DNA of 64,000 bases from a candidate division Zixibacteria bacterium HGW-Zixibacteria-1 (GTDB lineage: Bacteria > Zixibacteria > MSB-5A5 > GN15 > PGXB01): positions 1-64,000 of the forward strand of contig PGXB01000012.1 of assembly GCA_002838945.1 (NCBI GenBank). The letters are read 5' to 3'. Numbering within the stretch: position 1 is the stretch's first letter; every line of letters begins with the position of its first letter. Below, one piece after another: positions 39,355 through 45,359 of this stretch. A program made the position numbers and the translations under genes. The notes under the pieces are model-generated. The model saw only the letters and a program-made list of their open reading frames with translations, had not been told where the DNA came from and made no database searches.

Positions 39355-39477
39355 TCACTTCTTTTCCTTGATTTCCTGAAAACGGACCTTGCCGCATTTG
39401 GGGCAGATCCATTTCCGTCTCTTATGATAGGAGCGTTTCTGCTCAATCATCTTAGTCCGGCACCGGGGACAGGTCAT
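39355..39477 (-). CDS. 40-residue zinc-ribbon protein
   Basis: A very small protein, MTCPRC then a basic helix-like stretch and CPKCGKVRF, ending in Lys. Two CxxC pairs (C3-C6 and C25-C28) form a zinc ribbon. The start codon overlaps the stop of the six-TM gene upstream in an ATGA arrangement, so it is translationally coupled and almost certainly real. It has 11 Lys or Arg residues in 40, which fits RNA, DNA or membrane-face contact. It is the last gene of the five-gene cluster; its function is unknown. Confidence 0.75.
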   Translation of the reverse strand: MTCPRCRTKMIEQKRSYHKRRKWICPKCGKVRFQEIKEKK

Positions 39478-40085
39478 TTTATCAGGTGGAGAAAATCGGT
39501 TAAAAGAAAATCGACACGACCGATGAAGGTGGACATTCTCGACATGACGGTATATCCGAAAGTCGCCCCGAAGAAAATCATCAGGAAATATGTCCCCAGT
39601 TTGGCCGTCTTGCCCATAAAACCTTCATGCTCGCGGCTGAAATAAAAATAAGCCAGGGTCGAAATGATACCAAGAGCGACCACAAGGGCCTCGATGTTAA
39701 AGGACCCGTTTTCCATAAGGGGCATAACCGAAGCCGACATCTGCTTCAGGGTTCGGGCATAGAGCATGGCAGGAATGGCCACGCCCGCGCCGGCACCGAT
39801 CATAAGCGCAATGGGAATGCGCGACATCCAGGCGGTCTGTTTCGAGAAGCGGCTGAACATCATCAGGCCCAGAATCAAGGGAATTATCAGGATCAATCTT
39901 CCGTCGGAAAAAAGCGGAACGAGCAGCAGGTCAATTATGGTTGTCTGCCAGAAAATGACGAGGGCATAACCGATCGAGAGGCCGATCAGCCATGATTCCG
40001 CCGTTTTATAAACAGGATTATCTTTATATAAGAATGAAAATATCGCGAGAGTGAGAAGCCCTGCCACCAGCGTCCCGATGTCCAT
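39474..40085 (-). CDS. Six-transmembrane protein (cluster gene 4)
   Basis: A 203-residue protein with six predicted helices, no known family that I recognise. I placed the start at 40085 (MDIGTLVAG), immediately after the stop of the upstream gene; an upstream extension in the same frame would read through the other gene and is Arg/Ser-rich, unlike a real N-terminus. It is similar in size and layout to the six-TM protein at 40899-41516, which suggests a pair of membrane subunits in one complex. Confidence 0.8.
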   Translation of the reverse strand: MDIGTLVAGLLTLAIFSFLYKDNPVYKTAESWLIGLSIGYALVIFWQTTIIDLLLVPLFSDGRLILIIPLILGLMMFSRFSKQTAWMSRIPIALMIGAGAGVAIPAMLYARTLKQMSASVMPLMENGSFNIEALVVALGIISTLAYFYFSREHEGFMGKTAKLGTYFLMIFFGATFGYTVMSRMSTFIGRVDFLLTDFLHLIK

Positions 40086-40086
40086 T

Positions 40087-40902
40087 TTATGCCCCTCCCC
40101 TCTTGCGGCGGCCCCTGAAATAAACGACATTCCCGATAACAACCAGGACAATAATGTAGAGATGCGCCGCCGACTGCGCCAGCATGCCGCGCGTTCCGCC
40201 GCCCCGCTGATCGAGCAGATTTTCATATTCGGCCGCGCCACGCAGACCGCCGACAACGGCATAGAGTTGTTCCGATGAGAGATACGGATCATAAGATGTG
40301 ATCATGGCCGCCGTCAACCCGGCCATAACCGCCTGATTATAACGCGCCCCGGCATATTCCACCCACTGCACCGTACGATCGCCGTCGGCAATGGAAACGA
40401 TCATCGCAATTTTATCATATTTATCTACATTGTTCATGAGCGGCAGAGTATCGACAGCATTGCCCAGGTAATCCTCGGGGAAGACGCGTTTGATCGATTC
40501 GCCCATGCCGAGTATGGCCGAAATATATTGCGGTTTGAAGCCGAGAAAGACATAATCGCGGCCGTACACTTTGCCGTATTCTCCGGCTGTTTTATTCATA
40601 AGATTATAACCTATGGCGGTGCCTTCCGCGAATAATGACAGACCAACGATCTTTATATTATTTTTAAATGCATGACGCAGGAGCGCCAGGGCGATGGGTT
40701 GAATTTCCGGAAGCGACGAGGCTTCATGATCGAAGGAAAAGATGACAATCGAGGATTCCGGCAGTGTCTCTATATATTCATAAGCTTTTAGGGTCGCCGG
40801 AGACGGGACCGTTTTGAATCTGACCGTGACCAGATAGGCGGCGATTACGACAATGGCCAGTCCCGAAAATATGATCCATCTGGTGCGCAGTCGTTCCATC
40901 AT
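40087..40902 (-). CDS. Doubly anchored protein with alpha/beta domain (cluster gene 3)
   Basis: A 271-residue protein with helices at about 9-27 and 246-263 and a soluble domain between. The domain starts with a strand (SIVIFSFDHEA), followed by helix and strand alternation (NIKIVGLSLF, then YVFLGFKPQY), which looks Rossmann-like. The C-terminus after the last helix is basic (RGRRKRGG), placing it in the cytoplasm, so the domain is extracytoplasmic. It overlaps its upstream neighbour by 4 bases. I do not recognise a named family; related uncharacterised proteins in other phyla seem likely. Confidence 0.75.
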   Translation of the reverse strand: MMERLRTRWIIFSGLAIVVIAAYLVTVRFKTVPSPATLKAYEYIETLPESSIVIFSFDHEASSLPEIQPIALALLRHAFKNNIKIVGLSLFAEGTAIGYNLMNKTAGEYGKVYGRDYVFLGFKPQYISAILGMGESIKRVFPEDYLGNAVDTLPLMNNVDKYDKIAMIVSIADGDRTVQWVEYAGARYNQAVMAGLTAAMITSYDPYLSSEQLYAVVGGLRGAAEYENLLDQRGGGTRGMLAQSAAHLYIIVLVVIGNVVYFRGRRKRGGA

Positions 40903-41516
40903 TCACCCCTCAGATAGGTTCTCTCGATTCCAAGAATGACGCGCAACGCGGTCGTCATCGATCCAAGGCCGATACCGATCAGGATTGCGCGCCGGGCGGC
41001 CATCGACGGATAGCTCTGTATCCAGAATGTCACTTTGGGAAATGATTCCGAAATCATTTCGGCTATAGGAATGCGGCCAAGTAATACAATCAGGGCGGTC
41101 AGGAGCAGGATGGTAGCTGAGACCGTTCGGGCGCGGAAACCACGGTAGGATGCCGAGGCAACAAAGAAGGCCAGCAGCGAGAAGACAGTCGCCTGCATCG
41201 GGGCCAGCATGTTCTCGAAGGACCACAGGAACGGTGAACCGATTTTCGTGCCCCCGATAACGGCCAGGATCGGCATAAGGACCAAGCCAATAAGGCCGAT
41301 TGTTTTGTATGGCGATTCTTTTCCGCGACTGATGCTTTTCAGGCTGTTTTTGACAAAGGCCCCGACGCCCACAAACAAGGTAAAGGCAAAGATAATCTGC
41401 CACCATTCGAGGATATTGGTGTTGACCGACCGGGCCAGCGAATGTGACGAAAAATACTGGGCAAACATGATAACGCCGAAAACCAGGCAGACGATGAGTG
41501 GAATCTTGCTGCGCAT
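40899..41516 (-). CDS. Six-transmembrane protein (cluster gene 2)
   Basis: A 205-residue protein with six predicted helices. The start at 41516 (MRSKIPLIVC) overlaps the stop of the DUF6754-like gene in an ATGA arrangement; an in-frame start 14 codons upstream is less likely. No catalytic motif is visible. With the similar six-TM protein of gene 4 it probably forms the membrane core of the cluster's complex. Confidence 0.8.
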   Translation of the reverse strand: MRSKIPLIVCLVFGVIMFAQYFSSHSLARSVNTNILEWWQIIFAFTLFVGVGAFVKNSLKSISRGKESPYKTIGLIGLVLMPILAVIGGTKIGSPFLWSFENMLAPMQATVFSLLAFFVASASYRGFRARTVSATILLLTALIVLLGRIPIAEMISESFPKVTFWIQSYPSMAARRAILIGIGLGSMTTALRVILGIERTYLRGE

Positions 41517-42376
41517 CAGAACACCCACCAGGTTGATGACGGGTCGATGGTGGCCCAAATCATCGCTACTATTATAAATAGTGCAATCAGAATTTTTATT
41601 ATATCCTGTGCCTTGACTGATGATAAAATGGATTCATTCCCCGACAGATAGCCGGAGGCGGCAAATAATTCCTCGCCGATTAACGTGTAATCGCAGGCGA
41701 CGATGAAAAAGGCCAACTGAATGGTCGAGTCGGTTCCGGCGATCTGGATCGAACCGATGGCATTGCCGGTTTCGGCCAGGATCAGCGATTCGGCTTCGAA
41801 TGTCCCCAGGAGAAAAACCGAAGCCGGTTTTTCACGGCTGATGATACCATCCACCGCCGCGGCATAGCCGAATTGCGATGATGAAATATAGAAGATGTCT
41901 TCGGCCCTGTAACGATCCGGATGTCCGACCTTGATGCAGGCTTCTTTAACCACTTCCTGTGCCACCGCCATAATAACCGGGTCGTGGGTCGGATATATTA
42001 TCCGTGTGTCATATTCGGCGGTTTTGGTGGCTACCGATGAAAGAATATTCATCGAAGCGATGGTTGTCGGTCTCTGAATATCCCCACCCCACCCGGGTGT
42101 ATATAATATCGGGGAACCCATTTCGGTGGCCCGGCCAACCGCCTCATCGACCGCTTTCAAACCGGGGATTTCGCGAATTTTGAATTTTCTGCCGGATTTG
42201 ACCGACCATATGGCATAAAGCACTATTAAAAGCGAAAGAATCGAAAAAATAAGGGTGGAAAGGGTATTCGGATTCAGCCAGTCGCCGGTTTCGGCAATTT
42301 CGTTCGATGCCAGGGCTGGTCCGGCGAAGGCAATTATAACGGTTAAATATGATAAAATCCTTGAAAAATCGCGCAT
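41516..42376 (-). CDS. DUF6754-like membrane protein (cluster gene 1)
   Basis: A 286-residue protein. A cleavable or anchoring N-terminal hydrophobic segment (about 5-23, ending ALAS) is followed by a helix at about 40-62, then a conserved soluble domain (about 72-245) and a C-terminal helix (about 260-278). The domain begins GLKAVDEAVGRATEMG and GSPILYTPG, which I associate with the uncharacterised DUF6754 family; this assignment is from memory and moderate. The domain alternates strands and helices and has no obvious catalytic triad. It is the first gene of the tight cluster and is divergent from the sugar ABC importer. Confidence 0.7.
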   Translation of the reverse strand: MRDFSRILSYLTVIIAFAGPALASNEIAETGDWLNPNTLSTLIFSILSLLIVLYAIWSVKSGRKFKIREIPGLKAVDEAVGRATEMGSPILYTPGWGGDIQRPTTIASMNILSSVATKTAEYDTRIIYPTHDPVIMAVAQEVVKEACIKVGHPDRYRAEDIFYISSSQFGYAAAVDGIISREKPASVFLLGTFEAESLILAETGNAIGSIQIAGTDSTIQLAFFIVACDYTLIGEELFAASGYLSGNESILSSVKAQDIIKILIALFIIVAMIWATIDPSSTWWVF

Positions 42377-42424: not shown

Positions 42425-42451
42425 TTGACATCAGTGTCCTCTGATTATATT
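42425..42451 (+). promoter_or_regulatory. Promoter of the sugar ABC operon, likely leaderless
   Basis: -35 TTGACA at 42425-42430, 15-bp spacer, -10 TATATT at 42446-42451. The ATG at 42461 lies 10 nt after the -10 box, exactly as in the DUF401 gene, and no Shine-Dalgarno sequence is present. Confidence 0.55.
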
Positions 42452-42460
42452 CTCGATCTT

Positions 42461-43699
42461 ATGAAAAAACATATCATCTTATCAGCCATATTATTGCTGG
42501 CGGCCGCTCTGCTATATTGCTCAGGTGACCGGCAGCAGGTGGGCCAGGTCACCCTTGAATGGTGGCAATTCTGGACCGATCCGGCTATTAAGCCGACAAT
42601 CGAGAAAATTGCGGCCGATTATGAAGCGGCCAATCCGAATGTAAAAATCAACCTGACCGATCTTACCTGGGCCGATGGCCATGAAAAAATCGTCATCGCT
42701 TTTTCGTCAGGAACCGCTCCCGATATAATCGAACTCGGGTCGGATTGGGTGGCGGAATTCTCGTCAGCCGGGCAATTGGCCGACATAACCGAAGATGTCA
42801 TTAAGGATACCGCCAATTTCCTGGGATGGTCGGCGGGTATATGGAAAGATCGGATTTATGCCCGACCCTGGATTCTGGGAACAAGGATCTTGTTCATTAA
42901 TCGGGATTTACTGCGCAAGGCCGGTTTGGGCGAGAATTATGTTCCGATCAACTGGGATCAATTGAAAGAAGTTTGTTATAAGATTGACTCGCTGGGTAAG
43001 GATATTTATGGTTTTGGCTCCAATGCGGCGGAGAAGCATCGTCTATACAAGAAATTCCTGCCGTTTTTCTGGGCGGCCGACGGGCGTATTGTCAGTCTTG
43101 ATGGAAAATATTCGGTCTTCGCCAGTGATAAAGCCTACCGCGCGCTCAAGTTTTACAAGGAATTGAGTGACAGTTGTTCGATGGTGGACACGCAGCGCCG
43201 GCTCGAGGATGCTTTTCTGGAAGGTAAAATAGGTGTAATAATTTCCGGCGACTGGCTTCTCAAGAGAATAAAGAATGAAAATATTCAGCTTGATTTTGTG
43301 ACGACGCTGATTCCCGGCCCGAAATATCCGGGTAAATCATTCGCCGGCGGCGAATATCTGGCCGTGAGCGCCGGCTCTGCAAATAAAACGGAAGCGGCTC
43401 GATTTATGGAATTTATCACCAATAAGGACAATCAACTGCTTTTCTGCAAAGCCAATTACTCGACCAATCCATCCAGCAAGGCGGCCACGACCGATACGTT
43501 TTTTACTTCGGATGTGAATTTGCAGACTTTTGTTAAGCAGATGAATATGTCGGAAATGGTGCCGGCTACGCCTCAGTGGGTGTATGTTGAGGACATAATT
43601 GAAAGAATGTTGGAAGATGTCTTGTTTAATGATGCCCCGGTCGCCGAGTCGCTTTATGAGGCCAATCATAAAATCAAAGAATTGATTTTCAAGGAATGA
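42461..43699 (+). CDS. Sugar ABC transporter substrate-binding lipoprotein
   Basis: A 412-residue family 1 extracellular solute-binding protein. A lipoprotein signal ends in LLYC at about residue 20. The mature part starts with the EWWQFWTDP strand and has the FSSGTAPDIIELGSDW and SFAGGEYLAVSAGS segments typical of the MalE/UgpB type. I chose ATG 42461 because it gives a normal signal peptide; an earlier TTG lies inside the -35 box. It overlaps the first permease gene by 4 bases. The ligand is probably an oligosaccharide or glycerol phosphodiester, which is inference. Confidence 0.92.
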   Translation: MKKHIILSAILLLAAALLYCSGDRQQVGQVTLEWWQFWTDPAIKPTIEKIAADYEAANPNVKINLTDLTWADGHEKIVIAFSSGTAPDIIELGSDWVAEFSSAGQLADITEDVIKDTANFLGWSAGIWKDRIYARPWILGTRILFINRDLLRKAGLGENYVPINWDQLKEVCYKIDSLGKDIYGFGSNAAEKHRLYKKFLPFFWAADGRIVSLDGKYSVFASDKAYRALKFYKELSDSCSMVDTQRRLEDAFLEGKIGVIISGDWLLKRIKNENIQLDFVTTLIPGPKYPGKSFAGGEYLAVSAGSANKTEAARFMEFITNKDNQLLFCKANYSTNPSSKAATTDTFFTSDVNLQTFVKQMNMSEMVPATPQWVYVEDIIERMLEDVLFNDAPVAESLYEANHKIKELIFKE

Positions 43700-44559
43700 A
43701 AAAACGCCAGTTTGCCGGATATTTGTTTGCCTCGCCATGGGTAATAACATTTCTGGTATTCTGGCTCTTTCCCCTGCTTTTTTCCTTATATCTTGGCTTT
43801 ACCGATTACAAATTACTTAAACCGACCTACAACTGGGTCGGTTTTGGTAATTTTGCCGCCCTCTTTTCGGATCAGGAATTTCTGACGGCACTGAAGAATA
43901 CCTTTATTTTTGTTGTCGGGACAATTCCATTTACAACGGTTATAGCGCTTACGTTTGCCCTCTTATTAAATAAAAACTTCCCTGGCCGGACGTTGTTCCG
44001 TTCTGCCTATTTTATGCCATCGATAACTTCAATGGTGGTCATTGCGTTGATATTTACCAATCTTTATTCCCGGGGCGGCTACATTTTTATGCTGGCCGAT
44101 ATGATCGGACTGTCGCCGCCCGAAAACGGGTTCCTGCTGTCGAACCGAACCGCTCTGTATGCGGTTATGGCCATGGATGTCTGGATGTCGGTGGGCTATT
44201 ATATGCTATTGTTTCTGGCCGGGTTAAAGTCAATACCTGAAGAACTATATGAGGCGGCCGAAGTTGCCGGAGCAGACGCCGCCAGGAAATTTTTCTCAAT
44301 AACCCTGCCCCTTCTCAAACCGGTCATGTTATTTATAATCGTTATCAATACCATCAAATCATTTCAGGTCTTTGTCGAGATTTTTGTCATGACCAAGGGA
44401 CGATATGGCAGCTCGACGGCGGTTTATTTCATTTATGACACAGGATTGAGCCGGTTCGAATTCGGATATGCATCGGCAGCCGCATATATCCTGTTTCTGA
44501 TTATTGCGGTGTTCTCATTGGCCCAGTTCGGCCTGTTGAAGCAACGGGGGATGCAATGA
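43696..44559 (+). CDS. Sugar ABC transporter permease (MalF/UgpA type)
   Basis: A 287-residue binding-protein-dependent permease with six helices. The EAA loop, which docks the ATPase, is present as EELYEAAEVAGADAARKFFSI... at about residues 180-210. It overlaps both neighbours by 4 bases. Confidence 0.93.
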   Translation: MKKRQFAGYLFASPWVITFLVFWLFPLLFSLYLGFTDYKLLKPTYNWVGFGNFAALFSDQEFLTALKNTFIFVVGTIPFTTVIALTFALLLNKNFPGRTLFRSAYFMPSITSMVVIALIFTNLYSRGGYIFMLADMIGLSPPENGFLLSNRTALYAVMAMDVWMSVGYYMLLFLAGLKSIPEELYEAAEVAGADAARKFFSITLPLLKPVMLFIIVINTIKSFQVFVEIFVMTKGRYGSSTAVYFIYDTGLSRFEFGYASAAAYILFLIIAVFSLAQFGLLKQRGMQ

Positions 44560-45359
44560 AAATAATCAAATATATCGCTCTCAGCCTGATTCTGTTGGTC
44601 ATGGTGTTTCCACTGCTGTGGATGTTTCGCGTTTCCCTTATGCCGGCCACTTCAGGGCTTGGTTTCGGCAATTTTTTGTCTTCATCGTTTACCATGTTAA
44701 TATATTATGATATTATCACTTCCGGCAATATGTTAAAGTATTTCGTTAACTCATCTATCGTGGGAGCGGCAGTTACGGCGGGAAATATATTGTTCTGTTT
44801 TATGGTCGGATATGCGCTTTCGAGGTATCGTTTTATCGGGCGGAGTTTCTGGTTTTATTCGGTTATTTTCGTTCTGATGATACCGGTTCATATAATGATA
44901 ATTCCATTATACTTATTGATTTTTAGGCTGGGACTTTACGACACTTATGCCGCCCTGATTCTGCCCTTTCTGGTCAATCCGATCGGGATATTCCTGGTCA
45001 AGCAATATATTGATACATTGCCCTCGTCAATGGAGGAAGCGGCCCGGATTGACGGCGCCGGGGAGTTCCGGATACTTTTCCGGGTGGTCATGCCGTTATG
45101 CAAGCCGGCCCTGGCTGTGCTGGCTATCCAGGTATTCTTGACCAATTGGAATTCTTTCCTCTTCCCTTTTATCCTGACCAGCTCCGAATCGGTCAGAACC
45201 CTACCGGTCGGGCTGGCGCTTTACCAGGGGCATCAGGCAATCGACTGGCCGCATCTTATGGCCGGATCATCGCTGGCGGTCATACCGGTTTTGGTTATTT
45301 TCCTTTTATTTCAGAGGCATATCATATCCGGGATAACTTCCGGCGCGATAAAACAGTAG
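44556..45359 (+). CDS. Sugar ABC transporter permease (MalG/UgpE type)
   Basis: A 267-residue second permease with six helices and an EAA loop (SSMEEAARIDGAGEFRIL) at about residues 155-172. With the preceding two genes it makes a CUT1-type importer. No ATPase gene follows, so the system must use an ATPase encoded elsewhere, as the shared MsmX-type ATPase does in Bacillus. Confidence 0.93.
   Translation: MKIIKYIALSLILLVMVFPLLWMFRVSLMPATSGLGFGNFLSSSFTMLIYYDIITSGNMLKYFVNSSIVGAAVTAGNILFCFMVGYALSRYRFIGRSFWFYSVIFVLMIPVHIMIIPLYLLIFRLGLYDTYAALILPFLVNPIGIFLVKQYIDTLPSSMEEAARIDGAGEFRILFRVVMPLCKPALAVLAIQVFLTNWNSFLFPFILTSSESVRTLPVGLALYQGHQAIDWPHLMAGSSLAVIPVLVIFLLFQRHIISGITSGAIKQ

Follow-up and report, generated by a model that had tools for sequence, protein, structure and literature searches.

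Introduction

What do five small genes, packed almost without spacing on one strand of a Zixibacteria contig and mostly coding for membrane proteins, encode, and do their products act together? The window examined here is the whole stretch of 64,000 nucleotides that was analysed. Within it, the sequence and the list of open reading frames place five tightly packed reading frames, A to E, on the minus strand at positions 39355-42376 (Table 1). A sequence-only reading of this DNA had described a tight five-gene membrane cluster and had proposed that it encodes one system with paired subunits; all five reading frames are indeed present. It also described the genes as joined by ATGA overlaps or a 1-nt gap. 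This holds for B/C and D/E, which share the 4 nt ATGA, and for C/D, which are separated by 1 nt (TAAaATG), but the A/B junction is TGATG, a 1-nt overlap, and not ATGA. For D, the start giving the 203-residue product was chosen, the longer 272-aa start of the reading-frame list being unnecessary. A promoter and terminator scan was uninformative.

Table 1. Features of the cluster, in positions of the window (TM, transmembrane segment; aa, amino acids).
Feature	Position	Strand	Description
Gene A	41516-42376	-	286 aa; signal-peptide-like N-terminus, TM aa 39-57, DUF6754 alpha/beta domain, TM aa 259-277
DUF6754 match inside A	41540-42286	-	aa 31-279; Pfam profile 3-250 of 257
Gene B	40899-41516	-	205 aa; six-TM, predicted N-in/C-in
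Gene C	40087-40902	-	271 aa; TM, alpha/beta domain, TM; domain probably extracytoplasmic
Rossmann-like alpha/beta domain of C	40171-40815	-	about aa 30-244; AlphaFold/DSSP
Gene D	39474-40085	-	203 aa; six-TM, predicted orientation opposite to B
Gene E	39355-39477	-	40 aa, CxxC..CxxC zinc-ribbon; add-on of window-type cassette

Protein families of the cluster

The profile searches that had been suggested as a check gave a divided answer. A is a full-length member of the Pfam family PF20539 (E=2.1e-103; score 345.4 bits, cut-off 27), so that the name DUF6754 given in the sequence-only reading was correct. B, C and D, in contrast, have no family above cut-off in Pfam or NCBIfam, the best NCBIfam match of C being PRK04164 with 22 bits against a cut-off of 318. 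In Pfam, DUF6754 is known as one domain of unknown function; the cassette around it, its partners and its distribution are added by the present analysis. Among the open papers searched, none was found that names DUF6754, PF20539 or PF13941, and open-literature searches on GlmL, the LOG fold and Zixibacteria gave no paper on the system. Its novelty is provisional, as it refers to the open literature only.

Conservation and inheritance of the cassette

An intact A-B-C-D cassette was found 122 times, in Zixibacteria, WOR-3, Planctomycetota, Omnitrophota and one "Deltaproteobacteria" record (organism names are the depositors' record labels). In the set of 80 related loci, A is succeeded by B everywhere apart from one case, cut off by the contig end. 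C and D come next, in that order, at every locus whose contig reaches far enough, with the exception of L073 and L075, which have A-B without C-D nearby. The loci of WOR-3, Planctomycetota and Omnitrophota keep the same order and often carry two or three tandem ABCD units. The host genome itself has five DUF6754 genes or cassettes, namely that of the window, one on contig C19 and three in tandem on contig C27. The gene order is invariant across phyla, as the sequence-only reading had expected of a system, and the genes neither lie mostly apart in other genomes nor match unrelated known families. In a tree, the window-type A groups apart from the widespread A types.

A homologue of E stands directly after D in 45 of the 60 window-type loci with enough downstream sequence. 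Together with the order of the 122 cassettes, this argues that the cluster is not a product of chance. The two CxxC motifs read from the sequence are present, and the family consensus MxCPRCKxxMKExKRSFHKQRKWVCPKCGxVRFQ, with the conserved core CPRCK..M.E.KRSFHKQRKWVCPKCG.VRFQ, occurs in about 50 of the 80 related loci. E was rejected as a core subunit, being found only with the window-type cassette. The five-gene system first proposed is thus replaced by a core of A, B, C and D, to which E would add a lineage-specific soluble accessory or regulator.

The four core subunits also share their history. Their pairwise distances correlate at 0.88-0.92 over the 122 intact cassettes, and in 70 of 75 tests with tandem Zixibacteria cassettes all four pick the same nearest cassette of another genome, which indicates that each cassette is passed on as a whole. 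For genome groups further apart, the four subunits agree in 109 of 248 cases, against 11.6 expected under independent choice. A second cassette type with a tandem duplication of A (A-A-B-C-D) was observed at L101:9617-13479 in genome G008, and coordinates point to similar close A-A pairs in G014 and G004 as well.

Distribution

Nearly all of the nearest relatives found in the genome collection are Candidatus Zixiibacteriota records; loci labelled Ignavibacterium and Calditrichaeota fall among the Zixibacteria and may be misbinned. DUF6754 is present in all 60 Zixibacteria relatives (up to six copies each) and in 140 of 147 genomes of the WOR-3 phylum (up to seven copies), and absent from 14 well-known control genomes. 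It is patchy in the Planctomycetota phylum (75/294) and rare in the sets around the Omnitrophota genome (2/14) and around the genome titled Deltaproteobacteria (1/297). No copy of A was found on plasmids. The retention of this marker gene in the first two phyla, genomes of 1-2 Mb included, and its multiple copies point to a gene unit that is probably central to the envelope biology of these phyla.

A and C are kept together with great regularity. In the 294 Planctomycetota genomes, 75 have both, none has A alone, one has C alone and 218 have neither (Fisher p=4e-70, a descriptive value since co-occurrence p-values here are uncorrected for the kinship of the genomes). The joint presence extends to genomes in which C lies megabases from A, with C(D) at one locus and A at a distant one beside the genes for MutL and X375, the two partners described next.

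Partners encoded outside the cluster

The system extends beyond the cluster to an ASKHA protein of the GlmL/MutL family, here called MutL, and to a conserved 375-residue family, X375. MutL is a clear member of PF13941 (for a Planctomycetota member, E=6e-128 and 427.8 bits, the cut-off being 27; 2.7e-130 for the host-genome copy, G000:C3). Against the GlmL equivalog model NF040745, it scores 242.9 bits, under the cut-off of 475. In the same 294 Planctomycetota, A and MutL occur together in 69 genomes, A only in 6, MutL only in 11 and neither in 208; for A and X375 the corresponding counts are 67, 8, 2 and 217. The carriers of A without MutL (6/75) or without X375 (8/75) are possibly incomplete assemblies, and some MutL-only genomes (G277, G374) hold shorter copies resembling ordinary GlmL. 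MutL and X375 lie upstream of A in Planctomycetota, Omnitrophota and one WOR-3 genome, and beside some of the triple cassettes of Zixibacteria; in the host genome they stand together on contig C3, beside tol-pal-like genes.

X375 shows a weak biotinyl/lipoyl-like, barrel-sandwich-like match and reaches the cut-off of no family in Pfam or NCBIfam. B, C, D and X375 are all without a family in the libraries searched, although the marker gene of the unit is so widely kept. From the locus L170:10694-11821 and the alignment, X375 starts with MxHAYTPGL and its C-terminal part is weakly KOW-like. A further, small family, S149 (106-150 residues, no Pfam family), often lies ahead of, or overlapping with, the MutL-like gene in Planctomycetota and WOR-3 (L173:10465-10836, L174:9065-9385). 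Sequence searches of the PDB with A, with profiles of A, C and X375, and with MutL returned nothing significant. An anti-phage defence system was considered and rejected, as A-D, X375 and MutL match no PADLOC model; E gives weak zinc-ribbon matches only.

Co-occurrence in this way defines a concrete set of six components that is open to expression and testing, and it suggests that part of the GlmL/MutL family acts outside cobalamin-dependent mutases. Some of the Planctomycetota carriers may be culturable, in which case genetics could be feasible.

Structure and membrane topology

Hydropathy averaged over the family alignments gives 2, 6, 2 and 6 TM segments for A, B, C and D of the window, which bears out the two six-TM proteins of nearly equal length seen in the sequence. 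AlphaFold models of A (pLDDT 81.5) and C (pLDDT 93.1) likewise agree with the earlier description of one alpha/beta domain between TM segments in each; by DSSP, both consist of a TM segment, alternating alpha/beta elements in the same order, and a second TM segment. In Foldseek searches of the PDB, nothing fell below 1e-3 for either protein. A has weak Rossmann/LOG-like matches, the best being 6y01 (E=4.1e-3, TMt 0.50-0.54), and a weak match to the RCK domain of MthK at about 0.02. The matches of C to GPCR-fusion and GT-B structures were rejected, as they reflect TM helices or a generic alpha/beta fold (TM about 0.3). HHalign, with narrow, broad and domain-only profiles, detected no homology between A and C or between B and D. 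Given this result and the weak Foldseek matches, the likeness of A and C is one of fold class. It follows that the idea of one system with paired subunits is supported as to the system, by gene order, A/C co-occurrence, co-inheritance and the shared order of elements, while the subunits pair by fold and orientation and not by detectable sequence homology.

As to orientation, the loop 58-258 of A is richer in K/R near the membrane in all 159 members, a charge bias that places the domain of A in the cytoplasm. B has six hydrophobic segments and an N-in bias in 149 of 149 members, and D an N-out bias in 90 of the 108 members that show one; B and D are accordingly predicted to be oppositely oriented. 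The domain of C is probably outside: its family alignment shows K/R-dense tails at both ends, and the domain is free of cysteine in 59 of 139 members against 0 of 159 for A, although K/R counts are nearly equal per sequence and the orientation is only weakly determined. In some Planctomycetota, the TM3-TM4 loop of B is enlarged by an in-frame insertion of more than 300 residues (L180:7764-9596, L178:10521-12323); this loop would be external under the predicted topology.

A working model and its alternatives

The best explanation of the whole is an ABCD complex of two opposed halves working with the MutL-like protein and X375, a proposal that we consider evenly balanced between right and wrong. 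Its direct support comes from the gene unit, the order, the co-inheritance, the co-occurrence and the predicted folds; the charge bias of A, B and D, the position of MutL and X375 genes beside A or ABCD in four lineages and the insertion in the predicted outer loop of B also speak for it. Against it stand the lack of detectable homology between A and C or B and D, the uninformative fold matches, the weakly determined orientation of C, the few A carriers without MutL or X375, the lineage-dependent neighbours and the loci L073 and L075. Its parts differ in strength. A to D very probably form one physical inner-membrane complex, and the opposed orientation of the halves is reasonably likely. Powering or gating by MutL could equally be true or false, and the chance of transport, rather than sensing or enzymology, falls slightly short of even. 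The role in transport, secretion or sensing suggested from the sequence is likewise an inference. In one half, A with its cytoplasmic Rossmann-like domain would join B (six TM, N-in); in the other, C, whose Rossmann-like domain is probably outside, would join D (six TM, N-out). Of the two partners, both encoded elsewhere in the host genome, the GlmL/MutL-family ASKHA protein would probably act as the ATPase, and X375, soluble and barrel-sandwich-like, as an adaptor. The binding or hydrolysis of ATP by MutL would be relayed through X375 to the cytoplasmic domain of A and would drive or gate a change in the B/D membrane core; a substrate or signal would then pass between cytoplasm and periplasm, C being the domain that receives it outside. 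It is the location of domains on opposite faces, together with an ASKHA partner, that suggests such ATP-dependent driving or gating. The several paralogous copies per genome may specialise the complex, for example via the variable extracytoplasmic N-terminal part of A. More tentatively, it is conceivable that we are dealing with an undescribed envelope machine of at least six components (ABCD, X375 and the GlmL-like ASKHA protein), with a core of two opposed Rossmann-plus-six-TM halves. It would occur in all or nearly all Zixibacteria and WOR-3 and in roughly one in four Planctomycetota, and an ASKHA ATPase, not a P-loop ATPase, would do the powering or gating.

The same parts could also form a complex that senses a ligand or signals. 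In it, the Rossmann-like domains of A and, outside, of C would bind a nucleotide or metabolite and gate a channel or signal via B and D, like the RCK domains of ion channels, with the MutL-like protein in a regulatory role. The weak resemblance of A to LOG-like and MthK RCK domains agrees with this, as do the several paralogous cassettes per genome, the neighbour genes that differ by cassette type, and the Fn3-like extension of A on the extracytoplasmic side, which varies among paralogous cassettes (one at E=0.007). However, the fold matches stay above E=1e-3, no effector or histidine-kinase-like partner is consistently linked, and near-universal core status in two phyla exceeds what is expected of an accessory sensor; we regard this possibility as unlikely. 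GlmL is thought to reactivate cobalamin-dependent mutases, and its NCBIfam naming reflects this accessory role. ABCD might by analogy be a membrane enzyme or maturation complex, the client of a GlmL-like reactivating chaperone, and both the PF13941 membership of the partner and the invariant polar residues of A, which include Cys228, Glu202, Glu235 and Glu236, are in keeping with it. The failure of the partner to reach the GlmL equivalog cut-off and the absence of cobalamin-binding families among A-D in the Pfam and NCBIfam searches make it rather improbable. Finally, operons can hold proteins that do not interact, and the physical association of A to D is itself deduced, so that the cluster might be a conserved operon of co-regulated envelope proteins without a single complex; the maintenance of A and C together even when unlinked, and the duplication and co-inheritance of paralogous cassettes as units, speak against it, and we consider it very improbable.

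Comparison with known systems and gene neighbourhoods

The proposed complex of opposed halves has partial counterparts among known systems. Its MutL partner shares PF13941 with GlmL/MutL proteins (NF040745, TIGR01319), but has about 600-640 aa instead of about 460, and its gene neighbours are X375 and DUF6754, not a mutase. RnfA/RnfE and NqrD/NqrE form pairs of six-TM subunits, each about 200 aa long, that are oriented oppositely. B and D resemble them in size, TM number and opposite predicted orientation, whereas the cassette has no iron-sulfur or flavin subunit; membership of B and D in these systems was rejected, since no Rnf-Nqr family matched at E<=1 in Pfam or NCBIfam. The resemblance of A to LOG/Moco-carrier and RCK-type Rossmann domains is a weak one of fold, without a significant match or sequence similarity to any PDB chain. 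With regard to Tol-Pal/ExbBD, two Zixibacteria genomes have tolQ/tolR/tolB-like/pal-like genes next to MutL-X375, and a third has similar genes beside a triple ABCD locus, but A to D match none of these families and the linkage is not general.

Cassette neighbours vary by lineage (sugar ABC transporter, nucleotidyltransferase, Tol-Pal, PEP synthase), for which reason the context names no substrate. Attempts to read a substrate from the neighbours were set aside, as the contexts are lineage-specific and a large part of the synteny around window-type loci seems to stem from vertical inheritance. Upstream of A in the window (42425-45359), divergent sugar ABC transporter genes for a solute-binding protein and two permease-like proteins are conserved in most window-type loci, a link that may reflect no more than inherited gene order. 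In the second cassette type, a sugar-1-phosphate nucleotidyltransferase-like gene directly follows D at five Zixibacteria loci (L098:5130-6278). In WOR-3, three small genes directly follow D (L151:12423-14513, L158:12365-14439), the first DUF4388-like and the next Roadblock/LC7-like by eye.
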